Origin: a virus
Direction: 5' to 3' (one strand)
Length of the DNA: 41,120 nucleotides
Virus record (IMG/VR): IMGVR_UViG_3300021438_000026
Span: 1-41,120 of that record
The translations under genes and the position numbers were made by a program. Under the pieces are notes generated by a model. That model searched no databases. It was not told where the DNA came from and worked only from the letters and a program-made list of their open reading frames with translations. This document shows positions 1,697 to 39,837 of this stretch, in pieces; positions within the stretch are counted from its first letter, which is position 1, and every line of letters begins with the position of its first letter.

Positions 1697-4128
1697 GACA
1701 GACCGCCGAGCAACTCGCTACCGCTGAGGCTAAGTGCCGCGCGCGCTGGTATGAGTTGCGCGACCATCCGGTACAGTTGGCGTTTGTCCATGACGATGTG
1801 CGTTTCAAGTTGGCCCCGTGTGGCCGCCGCTGCTTACCCACCGGAACCCTCGTGGCTACACCGACAGGTCCCCGCGCCATCGAATCCCTACGCGTAGGCG
1901 ATACGGTTATGGGGCTTGACGGCCCCACCAATGTGACCGCTACTCACGACAATGGGGTGCAAGAAGTAGTAGGGCTCACTTCCCGCGGTCGAGAGTACCT
2001 GGCAGCCACCGACAACCATAAGCTTTGGGCCGCTCACGAGTATGCTTTTGATCCGCGGCGCAATTGGGCGGGGGGCTATGAGCGGATGGAAGTAGGTAGC
2101 CTAACTTCCCGGCACCGTGTGCGCAGGGTGTACCTCGGCGACGCTATCCGAGGGGGCAACGTTGCGGTGCCGCGGGCGTATTCCCTCGGCGCGCTGCTAG
2201 GCGACGGGTGCAGCCGCGACAATAAATCGACTGATGGCCGTTTCATGCGGTTCCTGTACGTGAGCGCCGGGGATCATCTGGTGCCCGAGGCTATCGCTGC
2301 CGAGATCGGCGGGCCTTACCGCAAACGCCCATCAGCCAACCACACGTGGCAGATTGCGGCAGGGCGCGGCGCGATGGACGCAGTGCCCTATTACCGCGAG
2401 TGGTGCGCAGGCAGGTACGCGCACGAGAAGATTGCCGATTGGGCAACAGTAGACACGTGGGACCGTGCCACGTGTTTGGCGTTCCTTGCGGGCATAATCG
2501 ACACAGACGGCTCGGTTTACTGGAAGTCATCGAAGCGGAAAGAGCTGGTAGTGCAGATAGGCATGCAGGCCCGCGCCGTCGTGGATGTGTGCGAACGGAT
2601 CGTCCATAAGTACTTCCAGGAATGGTGCACTCGCGAGGCGGACTGCCGCGCCAAGTATGTCAACGGGCCGGTCTACACGATCAAAACGACGTCCAATTGC
2701 ATGGCGGCCCGGCTGCTTACCGCGCTGCGTCCGTATCTTCGCAAGCGCTACGCGGACCCAGCCAGGCTAAAGCACGCCAATGTGCTGCCGGATCGCATTG
2801 GGTTGGCTCACGGGGCGCGCAGGCTCGCGCATACCTACGACATAACTGTAGCGAACGACTCAAATCTCTACGTTCTGCACGACGGGGGCATCGTAACCAG
2901 CAACAGCGGCAAAACCGAGCGGGCCAAGCGCAAGCTGGTCAAGGCTGCCATGCGCACGCCGGGCCGACCGTTCTTTGCCGCGGCCCCAACGCACAAGCAG
3001 GCCAAAACGATTTGGTGGGAGGACCTCAAGTTACTGAGCTTTGCCTACTGCTATGGGCCAGATGCCATTCGCGAGGGCGAGCTCACCATCCGTTTGCCTA
3101 ATGGGGCAAGTATCCACGTAATGGGGCTCGATGAGGCGCGGCGTATCGAGGGGGTACCGTGGGCCGGCGGGCCGATTGATGAGGTGGCGGACCTGCATGC
3201 CGACGCGGTCCCGTTGCACGTGCTGCCCGCGCTAAGCACCGAGGACCCGCGGTACCCAGGGTACAAACCCTGGCTCGATCTGATCGGTGTGCCCGAGGGG
3301 CTCAACCACTATTACGACATGTGCGAGCGGTCCAAGTCGGGAGTGTGGCGCAACTCCAAGGTGTACCACTGGACAAGCGCTGAGATTCTGTCTGCTGAGG
3401 AGATCGAGGATGCGCGTGGTCGCATGTCGGCCCGTCAGTTCCGCCAGGAGTACGAGGCGGCATTCGAGGGCGCGACGGGGCGCATCTACGAGGATTATGG
3501 CCATGCCAATACCACGACCGAGACGCTGCTGCCCACGGATGCGCTGAGCTGGATGCACGACTTCAACTATACGCCGCTGAGCTCATGTGTGGCCACCGAG
3601 CGTAACGGTAAGTTACTGATTGCAGACGAGATAGTGCTAACCTCGGCGGTGGCCCACAATGCCGCCGTCGAATTCTGCGAGAGGTACAAGGCGCACGCTA
3701 ATCGTAGCCTCAAGCTCTACGGGGACCCCGCGGGGCGTGCAGGCGAGAAGCACGCCCAACAATCCAACTACACCGCCATCGAAAGTTACCTCCGCAGTCA
3801 GGGCTGGAATGTGGAACGCCGCGTCAAGCTCGCAGCGCCAGCCATCCGAGACCGACAGAACGCAGTGCGCGCCAAGATCTGCAATGCCAAGGGCGACCGC
3901 ACGCTATTCGTCAACCCCAAGCTGGCGCCGACAGTCCACAAGGGGCTGAGCACCGTGCAGCTCAAGGAGGGCTCAGCGTTTCAGGAGGACGAGTCGAATA
4001 CTGCGCAACACATCACAACCGCGCTCGGCTATTGGATTGATCGCGAATGGCCGGTGCTGATAGACTCCACCGTACCGCGTCAGATCGTGACGCCTATCCC
4101 GAGTCATTCAGCGTTTAGGAGGAAATGA
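1693..4128 (+). CDS. terL: Terminase large subunit, intein-containing precursor
   Basis: An 811-residue precursor with GTG start overlapping the terS stop. N-extein is residues 1-46, intein 47-404 and C-extein 405-811, giving a 453-residue spliced product, normal for TerL. Splicing joins PCGRR to SGKTERAK, rebuilding a Walker A GRRSGKT. Walker B is GGPIDEVAD (acidic pair D496/E497). The C-terminal nuclease half includes HDFNYTPLS, ADEIV and GDPAG, consistent with an RNase H-like nuclease. Role: ATP-driven motor that packages DNA through the portal and cuts the concatemer. The enzyme should be inactive until the intein leaves, because the P-loop is split. An AGGAGG at the 3' end serves the next gene. 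Confidence 0.95.
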   Translation: MRQTAEQLATAEAKCRARWYELRDHPVQLAFVHDDVRFKLAPCGRRCLPTGTLVATPTGPRAIESLRVGDTVMGLDGPTNVTATHDNGVQEVVGLTSRGREYLAATDNHKLWAAHEYAFDPRRNWAGGYERMEVGSLTSRHRVRRVYLGDAIRGGNVAVPRAYSLGALLGDGCSRDNKSTDGRFMRFLYVSAGDHLVPEAIAAEIGGPYRKRPSANHTWQIAAGRGAMDAVPYYREWCAGRYAHEKIADWATVDTWDRATCLAFLAGIIDTDGSVYWKSSKRKELVVQIGMQARAVVDVCERIVHKYFQEWCTREADCRAKYVNGPVYTIKTTSNCMAARLLTALRPYLRKRYADPARLKHANVLPDRIGLAHGARRLAHTYDITVANDSNLYVLHDGGIVTSNSGKTERAKRKLVKAAMRTPGRPFFAAAPTHKQAKTIWWEDLKLLSFAYCYGPDAIREGELTIRLPNGASIHVMGLDEARRIEGVPWAGGPIDEVADLHADAVPLHVLPALSTEDPRYPGYKPWLDLIGVPEGLNHYYDMCERSKSGVWRNSKVYHWTSAEILSAEEIEDARGRMSARQFRQEYEAAFEGATGRIYEDYGHANTTTETLLPTDALSWMHDFNYTPLSSCVATERNGKLLIADEIVLTSAVAHNAAVEFCERYKAHANRSLKLYGDPAGRAGEKHAQQSNYTAIESYLRSQGWNVERRVKLAAPAIRDRQNAVRAKICNAKGDRTLFVNPKLAPTVHKGLSTVQLKEGSAFQEDESNTAQHITTALGYWIDREWPVLIDSTVPRQIVTPIPSHSAFRRK
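1831..2904 (+). mobile_element. Intein with LAGLIDADG homing endonuclease, in terL Walker A
   Basis: 358 in-frame codons from Cys (CLPTGTLV) to Asn (GIVTSN), followed by extein Ser as +1 nucleophile. Splicing block A is at residues 1-13, block B has TDNH at 60-63, and blocks F/G are at 335-358 (TYDITVANDSNLYVL). The penultimate residue is Ser instead of the usual His, a variation known in some inteins. Two dodecapeptide motifs, LGALLGDG (119-126) and LAGIIDTDG (219-227), both keep the acidic catalytic residue, so the homing endonuclease looks intact. Insertion at the P-loop of an essential ATPase is a classic homing target. Confidence 0.93.
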
Positions 4129-26681: not shown

Positions 26682-26909
26682 TCAATACCTCACAACTTTG
26701 CAATCCCAACTACTGCCGTACGCCACGCAATAGCACATCAGCCCGGCGGGCAAGCCCGTGGTCTTGCGGTCGCACGTCATCTCGACGCGCTTCACCTCGT
26801 ACGGGGGCAGCTTGTAGTTGTTGGCTGTGGAGCAGCCAGCAAAGAGCAGTAGTGCAGCGACGTACAGCAAAATGGCGACCAGCACTCGATTACCGCCGCG
26901 CTCATCCAT
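26682..26909 (-). CDS. Small lipoprotein (75 aa)
   Basis: ATG 26909, with GAGGAG 9 nt upstream, starts MDERGGNRVLVAILLYVAALLLFAGCST. This is a clear type II signal peptide with lipobox FAGC. The mature part (about 48 residues) reads NNYKLPPYEVKRVEM, TCDRKTTGLPAGLMC and YCVAYGSSWDCKVVRY; its four further Cys suggest disulfides in the periplasm. It overlaps the upstream zinc-protein gene by 8 bp. A role in lysis (o-spanin-like), envelope modification or blocking superinfection is possible. The export signal is convincing and the function is not known. Confidence 0.7.
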   Translation of the reverse strand: MDERGGNRVLVAILLYVAALLLFAGCSTANNYKLPPYEVKRVEMTCDRKTTGLPAGLMCYCVAYGSSWDCKVVRY

Positions 26910-27117
26910 TGCTCTGCTCCTCAAAGTAATACCCCGGCTGCCGGTAACAGCGGGCTTGCTGCCGCTCGCGAGCATACCGGGCCCGATCTGACACACGACG
27001 GCACTCCAGGCAGTACCCGTTGTCCGTGCGTCGTGCCCCTACGTGGCCGTGTTTGCACGTCTTGCCGGTCGTGTATTCCGCGGCACCAGACAGCTCAGCT
27101 TTGCGCCGCGGGCTCAT
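26902..27117 (-). CDS. Small zinc-binding protein (71 aa)
   Basis: ATG 27117 (MSPRRKAELSGAAEYTT) overlaps the stop of the upstream membrane-protein gene (ATGA); the frame is open farther upstream but this start fits the operon. The 71-residue product has TCKHGHVGARRTDNGYCLECRR, a C-x2-GH ... C-x2-C zinc site of the kind found in many small phage proteins and at the start of HNH-type modules, and a basic tail (RARYARERQQARCYRQPGYYF). No HNH active-site half follows, so endonuclease activity is unlikely. RNA or DNA binding is inferred. Confidence 0.6.
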   Translation of the reverse strand: MSPRRKAELSGAAEYTTGKTCKHGHVGARRTDNGYCLECRRVSDRARYARERQQARCYRQPGYYFEEQSNG

Positions 27118-27281
27118 CGCTGACGCTCCAATTCTTCCGAGAGGGCTATGCAGACTGCACCGGGAAATGCCAGAATCCCGAGCACCGCGGTGAATAGCGC
27201 GGCAATTGCAATGCCGACTAGCCCGCAAGCGGCCACGGGGGCAAAGAGGGCCAAGCCGAGCAATAAGAGGATTAAGCGCAT
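27114..27281 (-). CDS. Small two-TM membrane protein (55 aa)
   Basis: ATG 27281 with AGGAG 8 nt upstream; an in-frame ATG at 27311 is less well placed. The product MRLILLLLGLALFAPVAACG, then LVGIAIAALFTAVLGILAF, ends PGAVCIALSEELERQR. It has two hydrophobic segments joined by a tight turn and a charged C-terminal tail. It could be a small holin/antiholin-like or envelope stress protein (inference). It is the first gene after the polymerase C-half (60-bp gap) and is coupled to the next gene by ATGA. Confidence 0.6.
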   Translation of the reverse strand: MRLILLLLGLALFAPVAACGLVGIAIAALFTAVLGILAFPGAVCIALSEELERQR

Positions 27282-27341
27282 TGTGGGCTCCTGAGAGTGT
27301 GAGGTGAGCATAGCGGCGCGTGGGGTGGGCGCGCTGTGAAC

Positions 27342-29081
27342 TCATTCCCATTTCCCGTATCTTTGCGTCACCTCAGCCCCCGGCAGCTTGATGGGCCAAG
27401 GGCGGCCCTCATCGTCAACGGCCCAAGGCTTGAGCACCGCAGCGCGAGCGATGCGCAGGTACTCCTCGGATGTGCCGTGCACAGTCTCCACGATTTGCTC
27501 GTCATGCGTGTGGCCGACCACGGGGTAATTGCCGCTCGGGTGCTCATCGAGGGCCAATAGGGTATCGGCTTGGAATTCGCGCGCCACCTTGGCGACTACG
27601 TTTTGCGTGAGCACCCCGCCGTACAGCGGCATGCGTAGCCACGAGCCGCCATCCTTGGTGTTCCATCCCTCGTAACTGAGGTCCAATTCCCAAGGGCTCG
27701 CCCACTCGCGGCGGGCTTTGTTGAGCCGTGGCGCATGGTATTGCAGCGGCGCACCGTCGCCCGGGGGCTGGCAATACAGCACGTCGCCGACCATCATGTA
27801 CCGCACTTGGCGGTGGCCAAAGCAGGTGCCGGGGTTCTGTACCGCTGCAATTGCGGCACCCTCGAGCCCGTACAGCTCGGGCCGCTCGGGCGCGTAGCTG
27901 CCATCCGGCGCCTTGTTAAATTTGTTGCGCGTCTGGCCGCCCCACATCTCGACAATGTTGGGAATCTGCCGGCGGGTGCGCAATATCATCTCTTTGATTG
28001 CCTTCTCGTCGCCAAACGCCGCTGCGCCGAATTTCACCCAGCCACCTACCCATGCACCAAAGTCACTCGCGAGCACGGGGATTTTTCCGTACGTCTGCCG
28101 GTCGGGGTGATGCTTGCCGTTCTCCTTGCGGTATTGCAAGTAATAATCGAGCGATTTGCCGGTGAGCATCGCGGCCATCGACTCGTATATCTTGCCGTGC
28201 GTGTGGAACACGTCGAGCCGCCATTTCTCGCCCGCAAGTGCACTCGTCACCACGGCTTGAATCGCGGTGAAGTCGGCCGATATCAGTGTGGATCCGAGCG
28301 GCGCGCAAATCATTGACCGCAAGCAATTGGCCACACACTCAAGCGCATCGCCATAGACCAGCTCGACGTATTCAAGCGATCCCGTTGCGATGACGGCCAA
28401 CGCCGCTTCGATCTCCTCGGGGGTGTTGTTTGACCCTTTGTAGAGATTCATCACTTGAATGTCGCGGCCGTTCCACAAGCTAGTGTGGGCACTGTGGAAC
28501 GAGTATTGATCGCGCAGTCGGCCATCGGCGCACGTTTGGGCGCGCATCGCATACAGCTTTTTGACGCAGCCAAACGATAACAAGGCGCGCAACTTGAGGA
28601 CGCGCAACACATCCGCCGGATGCTGCTTGGCGAGCTCGGTTTCGACTGCCTCCTCATCCAAATTTTCAACGTAACAACTACGCGTTGCGAGCCAGCGCAT
28701 CATATCGGCCGCTTTGCTGTAGGACTCGACGGCGCCATGCGTCAACGCGCGGATCTCGGCGTTGTATTTGCCCATCGCTTGCTCGACGATGACAATGCAC
28801 GCATTGACTGCTTTGAGGTCGATCGGCAACCCGCGCGCATTTATGCGTTGATCCATCAACCATAGCCGCAACTCGCGGGGGCTCATCTCGGGCATGGCGT
28901 CACTCACCGCTATCTCGGCGCGTACGTCTTGCTTGCAGTACTCGTAGAACTGCGCGAATTCAAGCGGCGCGGTCCACGGGTGCAGCCGCAAGTCGGGGTT
29001 GCCCTTGGTCGGATTGCGCGGTACGGTCAGCTTTTTTATCAGCGCTTTGCCGGCTTTGTCTTTGAAGGCTACCGGCTGCAC
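27342..29081 (-). CDS. Family A DNA polymerase, C-terminal half (split gene)
   Basis: A 579-residue protein starting at GTG 29081 inside the end of the Rmf-like gene; GGCGGGG lies 8 nt upstream and an in-frame stop lies two codons before. It begins after the first exonuclease motifs: KDKAGKALIKKL, then YEYCKQDVRAE (exo III-like, 47-55). The polymerase part has HTSLWNGRDIQVMNLY (199-214), motif A SADFTAIQAVV (catalytic D270), RQTYGK (motif B, 328-333) and motif C GHTHDEQIV. The usual HTGRW and IEAR patterns read HTSLW and IQAV here, so active-site side chains differ while the metal-binding Asp residues remain. Role: replicative polymerase, probably working with the N-half at 29206-29736. Confidence 0.88.
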   Translation of the reverse strand: MQPVAFKDKAGKALIKKLTVPRNPTKGNPDLRLHPWTAPLEFAQFYEYCKQDVRAEIAVSDAMPEMSPRELRLWLMDQRINARGLPIDLKAVNACIVIVEQAMGKYNAEIRALTHGAVESYSKAADMMRWLATRSCYVENLDEEAVETELAKQHPADVLRVLKLRALLSFGCVKKLYAMRAQTCADGRLRDQYSFHSAHTSLWNGRDIQVMNLYKGSNNTPEEIEAALAVIATGSLEYVELVYGDALECVANCLRSMICAPLGSTLISADFTAIQAVVTSALAGEKWRLDVFHTHGKIYESMAAMLTGKSLDYYLQYRKENGKHHPDRQTYGKIPVLASDFGAWVGGWVKFGAAAFGDEKAIKEMILRTRRQIPNIVEMWGGQTRNKFNKAPDGSYAPERPELYGLEGAAIAAVQNPGTCFGHRQVRYMMVGDVLYCQPPGDGAPLQYHAPRLNKARREWASPWELDLSYEGWNTKDGGSWLRMPLYGGVLTQNVVAKVAREFQADTLLALDEHPSGNYPVVGHTHDEQIVETVHGTSEEYLRIARAAVLKPWAVDDEGRPWPIKLPGAEVTQRYGKWE

Positions 29082-29209
29082 GAATCATACCCCGCCATCC
29101 ATTGGGCATGCTCAGCCGTGCCGTTAGCGTAGGGGCAAGACGACCGGCCCTCGTTTCGCGTGGCTGCCCATACACCTTGGTTGAAACACATCTGAAGATG
29201 AATGCTCAA
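29069..29209 (-). CDS. Rmf/CrpP-fold-like small protein between polymerase halves
   Basis: A 46-residue ORF starting at TTG 29209 (TTGA overlap with the polymerase N-half stop; GGAGG 10 nt upstream); an internal ATG at 29191 would give 40 residues. The core GVWAATRNEGRSSCPY then AEHAQWMAGYDS matches the ribosome modulation factor pattern: an aromatic helix, then CPY, then WxxGY/W. The CPY triplet is identical to E. coli Rmf. Its end overlaps the GTG start of the polymerase C-half by 13 bp, so the three cistrons are likely translated as a chain. The tiny size and the split host gene made it easy to miss. Ribosome binding is inference. Confidence 0.6.
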   Translation of the reverse strand: MSIHLQMCFNQGVWAATRNEGRSSCPYANGTAEHAQWMAGYDSCSR

Positions 29210-29736
29210 AACGGCTTATCCTCCGCATCACAACGCGGGCAATCCACATGTGTGGGCGTACCGTGGGCGCAGTGCGTTGGCCGCTCCGGTTGCGTCCTAT
29301 GGCGCAACACCACGTCGCCCGCATCCTCGAGCCCCCGTGGGTAACCATTCACCGCCGCTTGTGCCATCGCGCACCGCATTTGCTCGATCCGCAGTGTGGG
29401 CCAGCCGAGGCGAGGCGTACAGAATAGCGACCAGACGTAGAACTCAAAGGAGCTGTTCCACGCCTTGACCAGACCGCCCGCGGCAACATGAGCGCAGATG
29501 TCCGCGGGGGGCGCATCGCCGGGCAACCACAATTGCACCCCGGCGCCGCGGCGCATGTCGTAGGCCATGCAGAGCACCTCGAAACTGGGATGAGAGACGT
29601 AGTTGTAAGCCCCAACGAGCGGCAACCCGGTCTTTTTGCTGCCCGGTTCGGTGCCGTGCCATTTACCGGCGGCGGCATCCCACGCTAGGCCAGCTTCGCT
29701 GTACGTCTCATAGTCGAATGAAGGGATGATCCGCAT
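29206..29736 (-). CDS. Family A DNA polymerase, N-terminal exonuclease fragment with zinc tail
   Basis: A 176-residue protein. The opening IIPSFDYETYSEAG holds exonuclease motif I (DYET), LVKAWNSSFEFYVW the motif II region, and MAQAAVNGYPRGLEDAGDVV the conserved stretch that in intact phage polymerases leads to KDKxGKxL. That continuation is found only in the downstream ORF (29081), in a different frame (655 bp offset, not a multiple of three). The last 25 residues are replaced by a zinc-ribbon-like tail (CAHG, CPRC). AGAGG, 5 nt from ATG 29736, is the ribosome binding site and is largely buried in the leader stem. The two halves are separate cistrons joined by the Rmf-like gene. Confidence 0.82.
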   Translation of the reverse strand: MRIIPSFDYETYSEAGLAWDAAAGKWHGTEPGSKKTGLPLVGAYNYVSHPSFEVLCMAYDMRRGAGVQLWLPGDAPPADICAHVAAGGLVKAWNSSFEFYVWSLFCTPRLGWPTLRIEQMRCAMAQAAVNGYPRGLEDAGDVVLRHRTQPERPTHCAHGTPTHVDCPRCDAEDKPF

Positions 29737-29741
29737 AGAAA

Positions 29742-29870
29742 CCTCTTTGCGCTGCGCTCACCCACCGGGGGGTGGGGATCCCGCCACCCTAGCGGAGTCG
29801 AACCGCCGCGAGCGCAGCGCAAAGAGTGCCGGTCTATTCCCGGCGGTCAGCGGCTTTGCACATCGCCGCA
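29742..29870 (-). promoter_or_regulatory. Structured 5' leader of the polymerase operon (candidate riboswitch-like element)
   Basis: In the minus-strand RNA, a perfect 17-bp stem pairs 29810-29826 with 29743-29759, and the distal strand contains most of the AAAGAGG ribosome binding site of 29736. Inside the stem is a T-arm-like hairpin (29791-29809): a 5-bp GGCGG/CCGCT stem with loop TTCGACT. There are also two mutually exclusive 6-bp hairpins (29771-29776 pairs with 29761-29766, or 29770-29775 with 29784-29789). Upstream are GCCGG/CCGGC (29828-29844) and GCGGC/GCCGC (29850-29869). No tRNA can be folded from it. This layout suggests control of translation. Confidence 0.65.
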
Positions 29871-29895: not shown

Positions 29896-30813
29896 CTATG
29901 CTATCAAACCTTCTTGTCGCAACAAAGCGTCAGTCCAACCGGCACCGATGAGCGCCTCATACGTTGCGCCTTGTGCCTTGGCTGTCATCACTCGCAATGG
30001 AGCCTGCGGAACCGGTGGCGCTGGGGGAACGGGGCCGGTGGGCACTCCGGGCGTAAGAAACGAGGGCACCGGTACCACATGAGTGGGTGCAGCGGGTACC
30101 GCAGGGGGTGCAGCATGGGGGGCGGCCGGCGTGGGGGACATGGCGGCGGCCGGTGGCAACTGGAAGTTAGTCATGCTGACCCCCGCAGGCAGCGCGACGC
30201 CTTGCCCAAACCCGACCGAGTCCGGATCGACGCTAGCCGATTCAATCACCTTGTCAATGCCCAGAAGGCAAATAATACGGTGATTTAGGTACATGCCGGC
30301 GGTCTTGGAGGATTGATTGCTGGCCACCTCGGCGGAAACTTGCACCCAGTAGCCAGGGCGGATGGCGTCCTTTTCCATCAGCTCGACTGTGCGGCCGCCC
30401 TCAAGCCGCACATATGTGGACGCCTGGGAGTTGCTGAATGTGAGCACCCAGTGACCCGGGTAGCCTTCTTTGTCCGCGTTGCGGCGCATGTTCTTATTCG
30501 GCACGGTAGAGTCGCCGTCAGCCACCTTAAAAGCGAAGCCGGTTTGCTGCGTCTGGCCGTTCGGCCAAGCCTTGAGCGCAGCAGCGTGCAATTGCGCGCC
30601 CCACGGAGAGGCGGTCCAATGCTGCCCCGGAGTCTTGGGGATGGCGTACCCGAATGCGTACTCGGGGCGTGGCTTGCCGGCGTTCGAGCCAGTCTTGAAT
30701 AACTTGGGCGTGCCGTCCTCATTCTTGGGGAATTTGGGCTCATAGAAGTTCCCCCAGACGATGCGTCCGGGAGCGAACAGGATGCTGATGCGGTCTTGCG
30801 TGGTGGTGCTCAT
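29896..30813 (-). CDS. DUF2815 protein (ssDNA-binding-like)
   Basis: A 305-residue protein from ATG 30813 (MSTTTQDRISILFAPGRIVWGNFYEP), overlapping the HNH gene stop (ATGA). The first 190 residues hold the DUF2815 core: GRIVWGNFYEPKF, KPRPEYAFGYAIPK, EGYPGHWVLTFS, AIRPGYWVQVSAEVASN and MYLNHRIICLLG. These proteins sit in the DUF2815/DUF2800/PolA/helicase/VRR-NUC replication module of many phages and behave like an OB-fold ssDNA-binding protein (inference from context). Residues about 200-280 are a Pro/Ala-rich linker, and the C-terminus is a short helix motif (YEALIGAGWTDALLRQEGLIA region) likely used for partner binding. Confidence 0.85.
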   Translation of the reverse strand: MSTTTQDRISILFAPGRIVWGNFYEPKFPKNEDGTPKLFKTGSNAGKPRPEYAFGYAIPKTPGQHWTASPWGAQLHAAALKAWPNGQTQQTGFAFKVADGDSTVPNKNMRRNADKEGYPGHWVLTFSNSQASTYVRLEGGRTVELMEKDAIRPGYWVQVSAEVASNQSSKTAGMYLNHRIICLLGIDKVIESASVDPDSVGFGQGVALPAGVSMTNFQLPPAAAMSPTPAAPHAAPPAVPAAPTHVVPVPSFLTPGVPTGPVPPAPPVPQAPLRVMTAKAQGATYEALIGAGWTDALLRQEGLIA

Positions 30814-31295
30814 TTGGTGCTTGCCTTGGCTGATGTGATTAGAGTTGAAACCCATGCGGAAATCTTCTGCAGTTCCTCGGGGGTCGAATCGTTTTTAATT
30901 CGATTGGCCCGGCCCGAAATCACGGTCACGTTCCCGCGGACGTACCCCAGTTTCGGTATCGTTCTATCCAATTGCGGTGAGTTGTCCAATCCTCCATCGA
31001 TGTAAATAGGAATCCCCAATGCTGGGCAAAACGCTGGAATCTCAAAATCCGTTATGGCCAAGTCAAACGGCAGGCCCTTCTTTTTAGCGCGATGCTTGGC
31101 CGTAACCACCATACGCCTCCGAGGGTCAGCCAAGTGCTTCACCTTATCCGCCGCCGGGTTGTAAGCCGCCCTAACTGCCGCAAGCTTTTTGGCCCGGTTG
31201 CGCACGTACCATTCGCGGTGCTTGGCGTTTATGCGCCCCTTGCACCGTTCACGGTACGCGTTTCTATACTCTTTTTCGTGAGAAGGGAATGACAT
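30810..31295 (-). CDS. HNH-like endonuclease/zinc protein
   Basis: A 161-residue protein between DUF2800 and DUF2815. The N-terminal 75 residues are basic helices (EYRNAYRERCKGRINAKHREWYVRN, RRRMVVTAKHRAKKKG). The C-terminal part FEIPAFCPALGIPIYI, SPQLDRTIPKLGYVRGNVTVISGRANRIKN shows the late half of a phage HNH family: ...P.LDR....GY..GNV.VIS..AN..K. Only one Cys of the usual pair is seen (FCPALG). Such genes are often free-standing homing-type endonucleases inserted in replication modules. Here the 1-bp gap and the ATGA overlap make it a fully integrated operon member. Activity is likely but unproven. Confidence 0.75.
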   Translation of the reverse strand: MSFPSHEKEYRNAYRERCKGRINAKHREWYVRNRAKKLAAVRAAYNPAADKVKHLADPRRRMVVTAKHRAKKKGLPFDLAITDFEIPAFCPALGIPIYIDGGLDNSPQLDRTIPKLGYVRGNVTVISGRANRIKNDSTPEELQKISAWVSTLITSAKASTK

Positions 31296-39616: not shown

Positions 39617-39837
39617 GAAGTGTAGTTTGTCATTAGGACTACGAAAATGGGTTTACGGCTAAAGGGGCATTTCTTTCGTTTTCAGTATGTATGACTGTTT
39701 TTCTGTGTGCATTTGAGTGTTATATGTAGTAAGAAAGATTGCGCGGGTAGATAAGGTAATCATACATACTGAAAACGAAAGAATGGGGCCATGGCGGCTA
39801 AAGGCGATTTCGTAGTCCTAATGACAAACTACACTTC
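39617..39837. repeat. 221-bp region with 78-nt imperfect inverted-repeat arms (origin/control candidate)
   Basis: Arms 39617-39694 and 39760-39837. The outer 30 nt match perfectly as inverted repeats (39617-39646 with 39808-39837) and so do the inner 24 nt (39671-39694 with 39760-39783). Between them each arm has a 24-nt unmatched segment, both containing CGGCTAAAGG in the same orientation (39656-39665 and 39795-39804). The 65-bp centre is AT-rich relative to the genome (TGTTATATGTAG, AAGAAAGATT). There is no ORF. Divergent promoters lie on both flanks. Candidates: replication origin, long RNA hairpin or multi-protein operator. Confidence 0.85.

Follow-up and report, generated by a model that had tools for sequence, protein, structure and literature searches.

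A phage family A DNA polymerase gene split inside its proofreading exonuclease domain

Several phage enzymes are known to work in pieces, including the split gp43 of Aeromonas phages 25 and 44RR, the split NrdA of Aeromonas phage Aeh1 and the topoisomerase of T4 (PMC2988022). The two gp43 polypeptides of Aeromonas phage 25, 43A and 43B, co-purify, and polymerase activity is present (PMC2988022). In addition, the family A polymerase of the OM43 phages MEP401 and MEP402 is encoded by two ORFs that flank a small one, and a split polymerase is present in most group I genomes of these phages (PMC10580990). Split phage polymerases are already known, both as the T4-like gp43A/43B and in MEP401.

Here we describe a family A polymerase gene that is split between the second and third motifs of its exonuclease domain. 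It lies in the virus record IMGVR_UViG_3300021438_000026, and "the window" below means the whole stretch of this record that was analysed (41,120 bases). Each polymerase half is single-copy in the record, and the two ORFs jointly cover an intact homologue, which is the mark of a gene in pieces. We propose that the gene is stably split and that its two separately translated polypeptides reassemble non-covalently into one proofreading polymerase, a reading to which we give a probability of roughly three in four.

Architecture of the split locus

The polymerase unit consists of three minus-strand ORFs (29736-29206, 29209-29069 and 29081-27342). ORF calls reproduced the coordinates, frames and overlaps of the initial annotation in full. 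The features of the locus are as follows.

29896..30855, minus strand: Gp2.5-like ssDNA-binding protein gene, upstream (phrog_7011, E=4.8e-54)
29743..29826, minus strand: hairpin directly upstream of the N-part, its 17-bp arms perfect (z=-4.05)
29742-29747, minus strand: Shine-Dalgarno-like AAGAGG of the N-part
29206..29736, minus strand: N-part of the split PolA, 176 aa, ATG start (phrog_17, E=8.5e-9; alignments; AF2)
29206..29304, minus strand: extra tail of the N-part past the junction, with a Cys/His pattern, ending DAEDKPF before the stop; predicted disordered from about residue 150
29220..29224, minus strand: Shine-Dalgarno-like GGAGG of the Rmf-like ORF (best 0.9% of random positions)
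29069..29209, minus strand: Rmf-like ORF, putative cargo between the halves, 46 aa, TTG start (PF04957)
29090..29096, minus strand: Shine-Dalgarno-like GGCGGGG of the C-part (best 4.3% of random positions)
27342..29081, minus strand: C-part of the split PolA, 579 aa, GTG start (phrog_17, E=6.6e-45; alignments)

Each of the three starts is preceded by a Shine-Dalgarno-like site that ranks in the top 0.9-4.3% of random window positions, in agreement with the earlier claim that each start has its own ribosome binding site. The N-part stop and the TTG start of the Rmf-like ORF are joined as TTGA, and the Rmf-like ORF overlaps the GTG start of the C-part by 13 nt. Since an in-frame TGA lies two codons upstream, the C-part start is fixed at this GTG and none earlier is possible.

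Both parts were assigned to the family A DNA polymerases by PHROG 17, at the E-values listed above; the Pfam scan gave a DNA_pol_A match below the cut-off only (E=0.11). The N-part comprises the exonuclease core with Exo I (D8 and E10, 29707-29715) and Exo II (N94-E98, 29443-29457). The C-part comprises the Exo III helix (Y48 and D52, 28926-28940) and a Klenow-like polymerase in which the carboxylates D270 and D527/E528 are present by alignment, and so the Exo I, II and III residues and the polymerase carboxylates are all kept across the two parts. Alignment with intact phage PolA proteins, the check suggested when the split was first annotated, showed that N-part residues up to 144 and C-part residues from 2 onwards tile the whole enzyme, with no conserved residue missing at the junction. 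In the nearest phage records, the N-part match usually stops near residue 143 and the C-part match usually starts at residues 4-11, in the same gene. Intact homologues extending over both parts as one gene are found in Vibrio phage 1.009.O, Shewanella phage SppYZU01 and Acinetobacter phage Scuro; these have a single ORF without the extra tail and without cargo, whereas the window has both. In the AF2 model of the N-part, residues 1-148 fold alone with high confidence, and the AlphaFold2 model of an intact relative (L194, pLDDT 91.8) has a Klenow-like fold according to Foldseek.

Split relatives and selection on the two parts

Relatives were gathered from viral-contig scans, one genome scan and phage records. 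The window C-part alone as a query gave no match in viral contigs, and alignments were needed to find relatives. In total, 179 distinct polymerase loci covered both parts; 168 of these were intact and 11 were flagged. L129, flagged as broken by the automatic count, was treated as an alignment artefact because an open 718-aa ORF spans it, and L014 (= L097) was left out of the count because the break in its frame lies near A-runs and may reflect either a frameshift or an error in sequencing. L013, L181, L168 and L068 carry in-frame insertions at other places in the polymerase, which we do not class as such splits; by eye, the large insertion of L013 (about 2610-3484) is intein-like near motif B and that of L168 (about 2754-3625) overlaps an HNH-like ORF. 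The remaining split loci fall at three sites, each between Exo II and Exo III. By alignment, these sites are loops between the Exo II and Exo III helices, at about 144-152, 176-183 and 194-213 of the L194 model.

Site 1 (N residue ~121): L019, L107 (near copy L217), L108 and L214
Site 2 (N residue ~144, the site of the window): the window, L016 and L113
Site 3 (C residue ~30): L205 and L119

The closest relative, L016 (67%), shares the junction of the window, and its 831-nt insert between the halves holds four small, unrelated ORFs. At the same site, L113 has no insert: its N-part ends DGYDDDIPF and an ATG follows directly. Site-1 N-parts end HCD(D/E)QGLPPL and site-1 C-parts begin M(T/S)DQAHCSAAKA, with gaps of 304 (L019), 855 (L107), 1425 (L108) and 307 nt (L214) in which the ORFs differ. 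At site 3, the two ORFs of L205 overlap by 11 nt, and L119 has a Dam-type methyltransferase gene between the halves and an N-part ending EDDIPF. Searching related phages for the same split, as the initial annotation proposed, thus returned L016 with the same junction and further splits at two other loops; the window is not the lone disrupted isolate among intact relatives that would have spoken for decay. Since the halves will be mislabeled by gene callers, the number of such polymerases is probably underestimated.

In a maximum-likelihood tree of 68 C-parts (INDEPENDENCE), the window grouped with L016 (100/97), L119 with L205 (100/100), the four site-1 phages with one another (100/100) and L113 with the intact L112 and L116 (95/65). 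The split groups are set apart by intact relatives, and every split is confined to the 31 rows that form one side of the tree, with 0 of 37 rows split on the other. The simplest reading of this topology is at least four fissions of independent origin, or five if L014 is real; the alternative would be repeated re-fusion.

Pairwise dN/dS (Nei-Gojobori) was 0.06-0.18 for N-parts (where dS was defined) and 0.05-0.09 for C-parts in site-1 pairs, 0.08 (N) and 0.09 (C) for L119/L205, and 0.10 (N) and 0.17 (C) for the window and L016, all of these being rough values because dS is near saturation in several pairs. The ratios clearly point to purifying selection maintaining both parts. In most site-1 pairs the N-parts diverge somewhat faster than the C-parts, and some relaxation of the N-parts is therefore possible. 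Taken with the shared split, the recurrent fission and the retention of all exonuclease and polymerase residues, this selection supports the earlier description of an evolved three-cistron unit and not decay.

One further observation from the 179 loci concerns motif A. The position of the Klenow steric gate E710 is Gln in the window C-part (Q275, 28257-28259), which has also lost the Arg of the TGR motif (residue L202, 28476-28478). The two changes co-occur: Gln without Arg is found in 24 loci, Glu with Arg in 152 and a mixed state in 3, and ribonucleotide discrimination is worth testing in the Gln/Arg-loss subclade.

A probable two-polypeptide enzyme and the slot in its gene

Reassembly of the two proteins into one proofreading polymerase is the most likely outcome, given purifying selection on both parts and the retention of all catalytic residues. 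Because the exonuclease residues are kept on two different polypeptides, it is likely that the two meet, and the independent repeat cuts and the changing slot contents argue for a functional enzyme in two pieces rather than a broken gene. The evidence for the split comes from metagenomic contigs throughout. We suggest that fission took place in the tolerant loop stretch between Exo II and Exo III, and that the two polypeptides are translated from starts of their own, stops and starts overlapping at the junctions. The N-part would give the beta-sheet core of the exonuclease, including Exo I and II, and the C-part the Exo III helix and the polymerase, and their non-covalent reassembly would yield one polymerase with a proofreading site shared by two proteins. 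The open junction would then have become a slot for small genes, here the Rmf-like gene.

It is also conceivable that the halves stay apart, with the C-part acting as an exonuclease-deficient polymerase and the N-part having some other role or decaying. The case for association is an indirect one, made from sequence, and the slightly faster evolution of N-parts in most site-1 pairs would fit such a separation. Nevertheless, the Exo III Y and D of the C-part are kept together with the Exo I and II residues of the N-part in every split pair, and N-part dN/dS is low, so that we consider a separate existence of the halves unlikely.

Very unlikely, in our judgement, is the rejoining of the halves into one chain by an intron, ribosome bypass or a frameshift (ALTERNATIVES). 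Phage polymerase genes with self-splicing introns are known (discussed in PMC10580990), and the open frames of L014 and L205 overlap by 58-71 nt, where a frameshift could join them. However, two frameshifts would be needed in the window, an intron would not fit into the junctions of L113 and L205, and the search for group I and II introns gave no Rfam family match and no excess structure in the window insert (z=+1.16). The Pfam scan likewise found in neither part the intein (Hint) domain that a split intein would have.

The initial annotation had also raised a coupling of replication to a translation modulator, in which the Rmf-like protein would be co-expressed with the polymerase and tie replication to ribosome hibernation. 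The RMF domain is genuine, with a match to Pfam RMF PF04957 (30.5 bits, cut-off 27.9, E=3.8e-7) well beyond chance for 46 codons, and the overlapping junctions and good Shine-Dalgarno-like site are what such co-expression would call for. RMF-domain genes are also present in cultivated phages (Agrobacterium phages). However, the Rmf-like ORF was absent from all other fetched polymerase loci. The slot contents differ in each distinct split phage, L113 and L205 are without cargo, and no cargo ORF is common to distinct split phages. The coupling is thus highly improbable, and Rmf was rejected as a conserved partner. Within the two-piece polymerase that we favor, Rmf is most likely passenger cargo and not a conserved link between replication and translation, and the slot looks like one in which small genes turn over.

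An assembly error or pseudogene has a negligible chance: the sequence is a metagenomic assembly, but the junction recurs in the independent contig L016 around a different insert, the flanks and insert are coding, and dN/dS is low.

N-part ends, neighboring genes and known systems

The window N-part has about 32 extra residues past the junction, a tail that is probably disordered since AF2 confidence drops from about residue 150. This tail had been described as a zinc ribbon. A CxH..CxxC pattern is present in the tail, but no zinc ribbon is conserved across the other split N-parts: Cys residues are common to the tails of the window and L016, the tails of L113 and L119 have none, and a shared zinc-ribbon tail was rejected beyond the window and L016.

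The extreme ends of these N-parts are recurrent (window DAEDKPF, L016 NECIPF, L113 DDDIPF and L119 EDDIPF), with a terminal PF in three fission lineages and DDIPF in two. The SSB of E. coli ends DDDIPF, which is a docking motif, and the SSB of phage HK620 uses NDYPPF similarly (PMC5928155). The ends of L113 and L119 match this tip well and those of the window and L016 only in part. In the loci set, 30 of 8966 distinct ORFs of at least 40 aa end in PF, as do 5 of 888 ORFs of at least 150 aa, with split N-parts among them. The phage's own Gp2.5-like protein is without an SSB-type PF end. No PF end occurs in the N-parts of L205, L014 and the site-1 group, so that the tail is dispensable for a split enzyme. 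In L214, a 69-aa ORF (3653-3862) that lies immediately upstream of the split polymerase ends SDDEIPF, another SSB-like tip.

Perhaps fission frees an exonuclease subunit whose SSB-mimicking tip docks the proofreading subunit and the polymerase onto SSB-tail-binding proteins. We regard this as doubtful; the window tail resembles SSB only in part, and any partner that it might bind is speculative. If it were true, proofreading would reside in a subunit that can detach and is regulated on its own, possibly by way of the hairpin that overlies the ribosome-binding site of the N-part.

The 3' arm of this hairpin covers most of the N-part AAGAGG, and the hairpin may control translation of the exonuclease part. 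Inverted repeats were also seen elsewhere: L016 has three in a chain (2448-2721), of which one covers the start codon of its N-part, arms of 11-14 bp occur at the corresponding place in several intact relatives, and the window has two nested repeats at 39617-39837, one of 39 nt (90%) and one of 24 nt (perfect). Genes of the Endonuclease VII / HNH-like type are found close to the window polymerase (30810-31295 and 26902-27351) and directly flank that of L019 (729-1184 and 3662-4042). Such flanking genes may have helped gene exchange at the polymerase locus.

In conclusion, one phage lineage appears to have undergone repeated independent fission inside the proofreading domain, with a hypervariable gene slot in mid-gene. 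Natural comparisons are at hand in L205 without cargo versus L119 with cargo, and in intact versus split relatives, and make it directly testable here how a single chain turns into two subunits and whether proofreading comes under separate control. In the open-licence papers searched we did not find fission of a family A polymerase in its exonuclease loops, its repeated origin or SSB-like N-part ends. Like the T4-like Aeromonas phages 25 and 44RR, the window would have its replicative polymerase as two polypeptides. However, gene 43 of those phages belongs to family B, another lineage, and its split holds a seg homing endonuclease or an untranslated stretch, whereas the window polymerase is of family A and the slot holds unrelated small genes. 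The split NrdA of Aeh1, which arose with a mobE insertion, also gives a functional enzyme from two polypeptides (PMC2988022), but it is a ribonucleotide reductase with a homing endonuclease insert, in contrast to a polymerase with an Rmf-like one; at the window break there is no homing endonuclease, the insert being the RMF-like ORF only, with endonuclease genes nearby instead. MEP401 and MEP402 (L224) resemble the window in that their polymerase is of family A and its two ORFs are separated by one small ORF. Their polymerase belongs to a different clade, with an N-part that lacks a PF end, and it is cut in the polymerase domain, past the whole exonuclease domain, whereas the window polymerase is cut inside the exonuclease itself.
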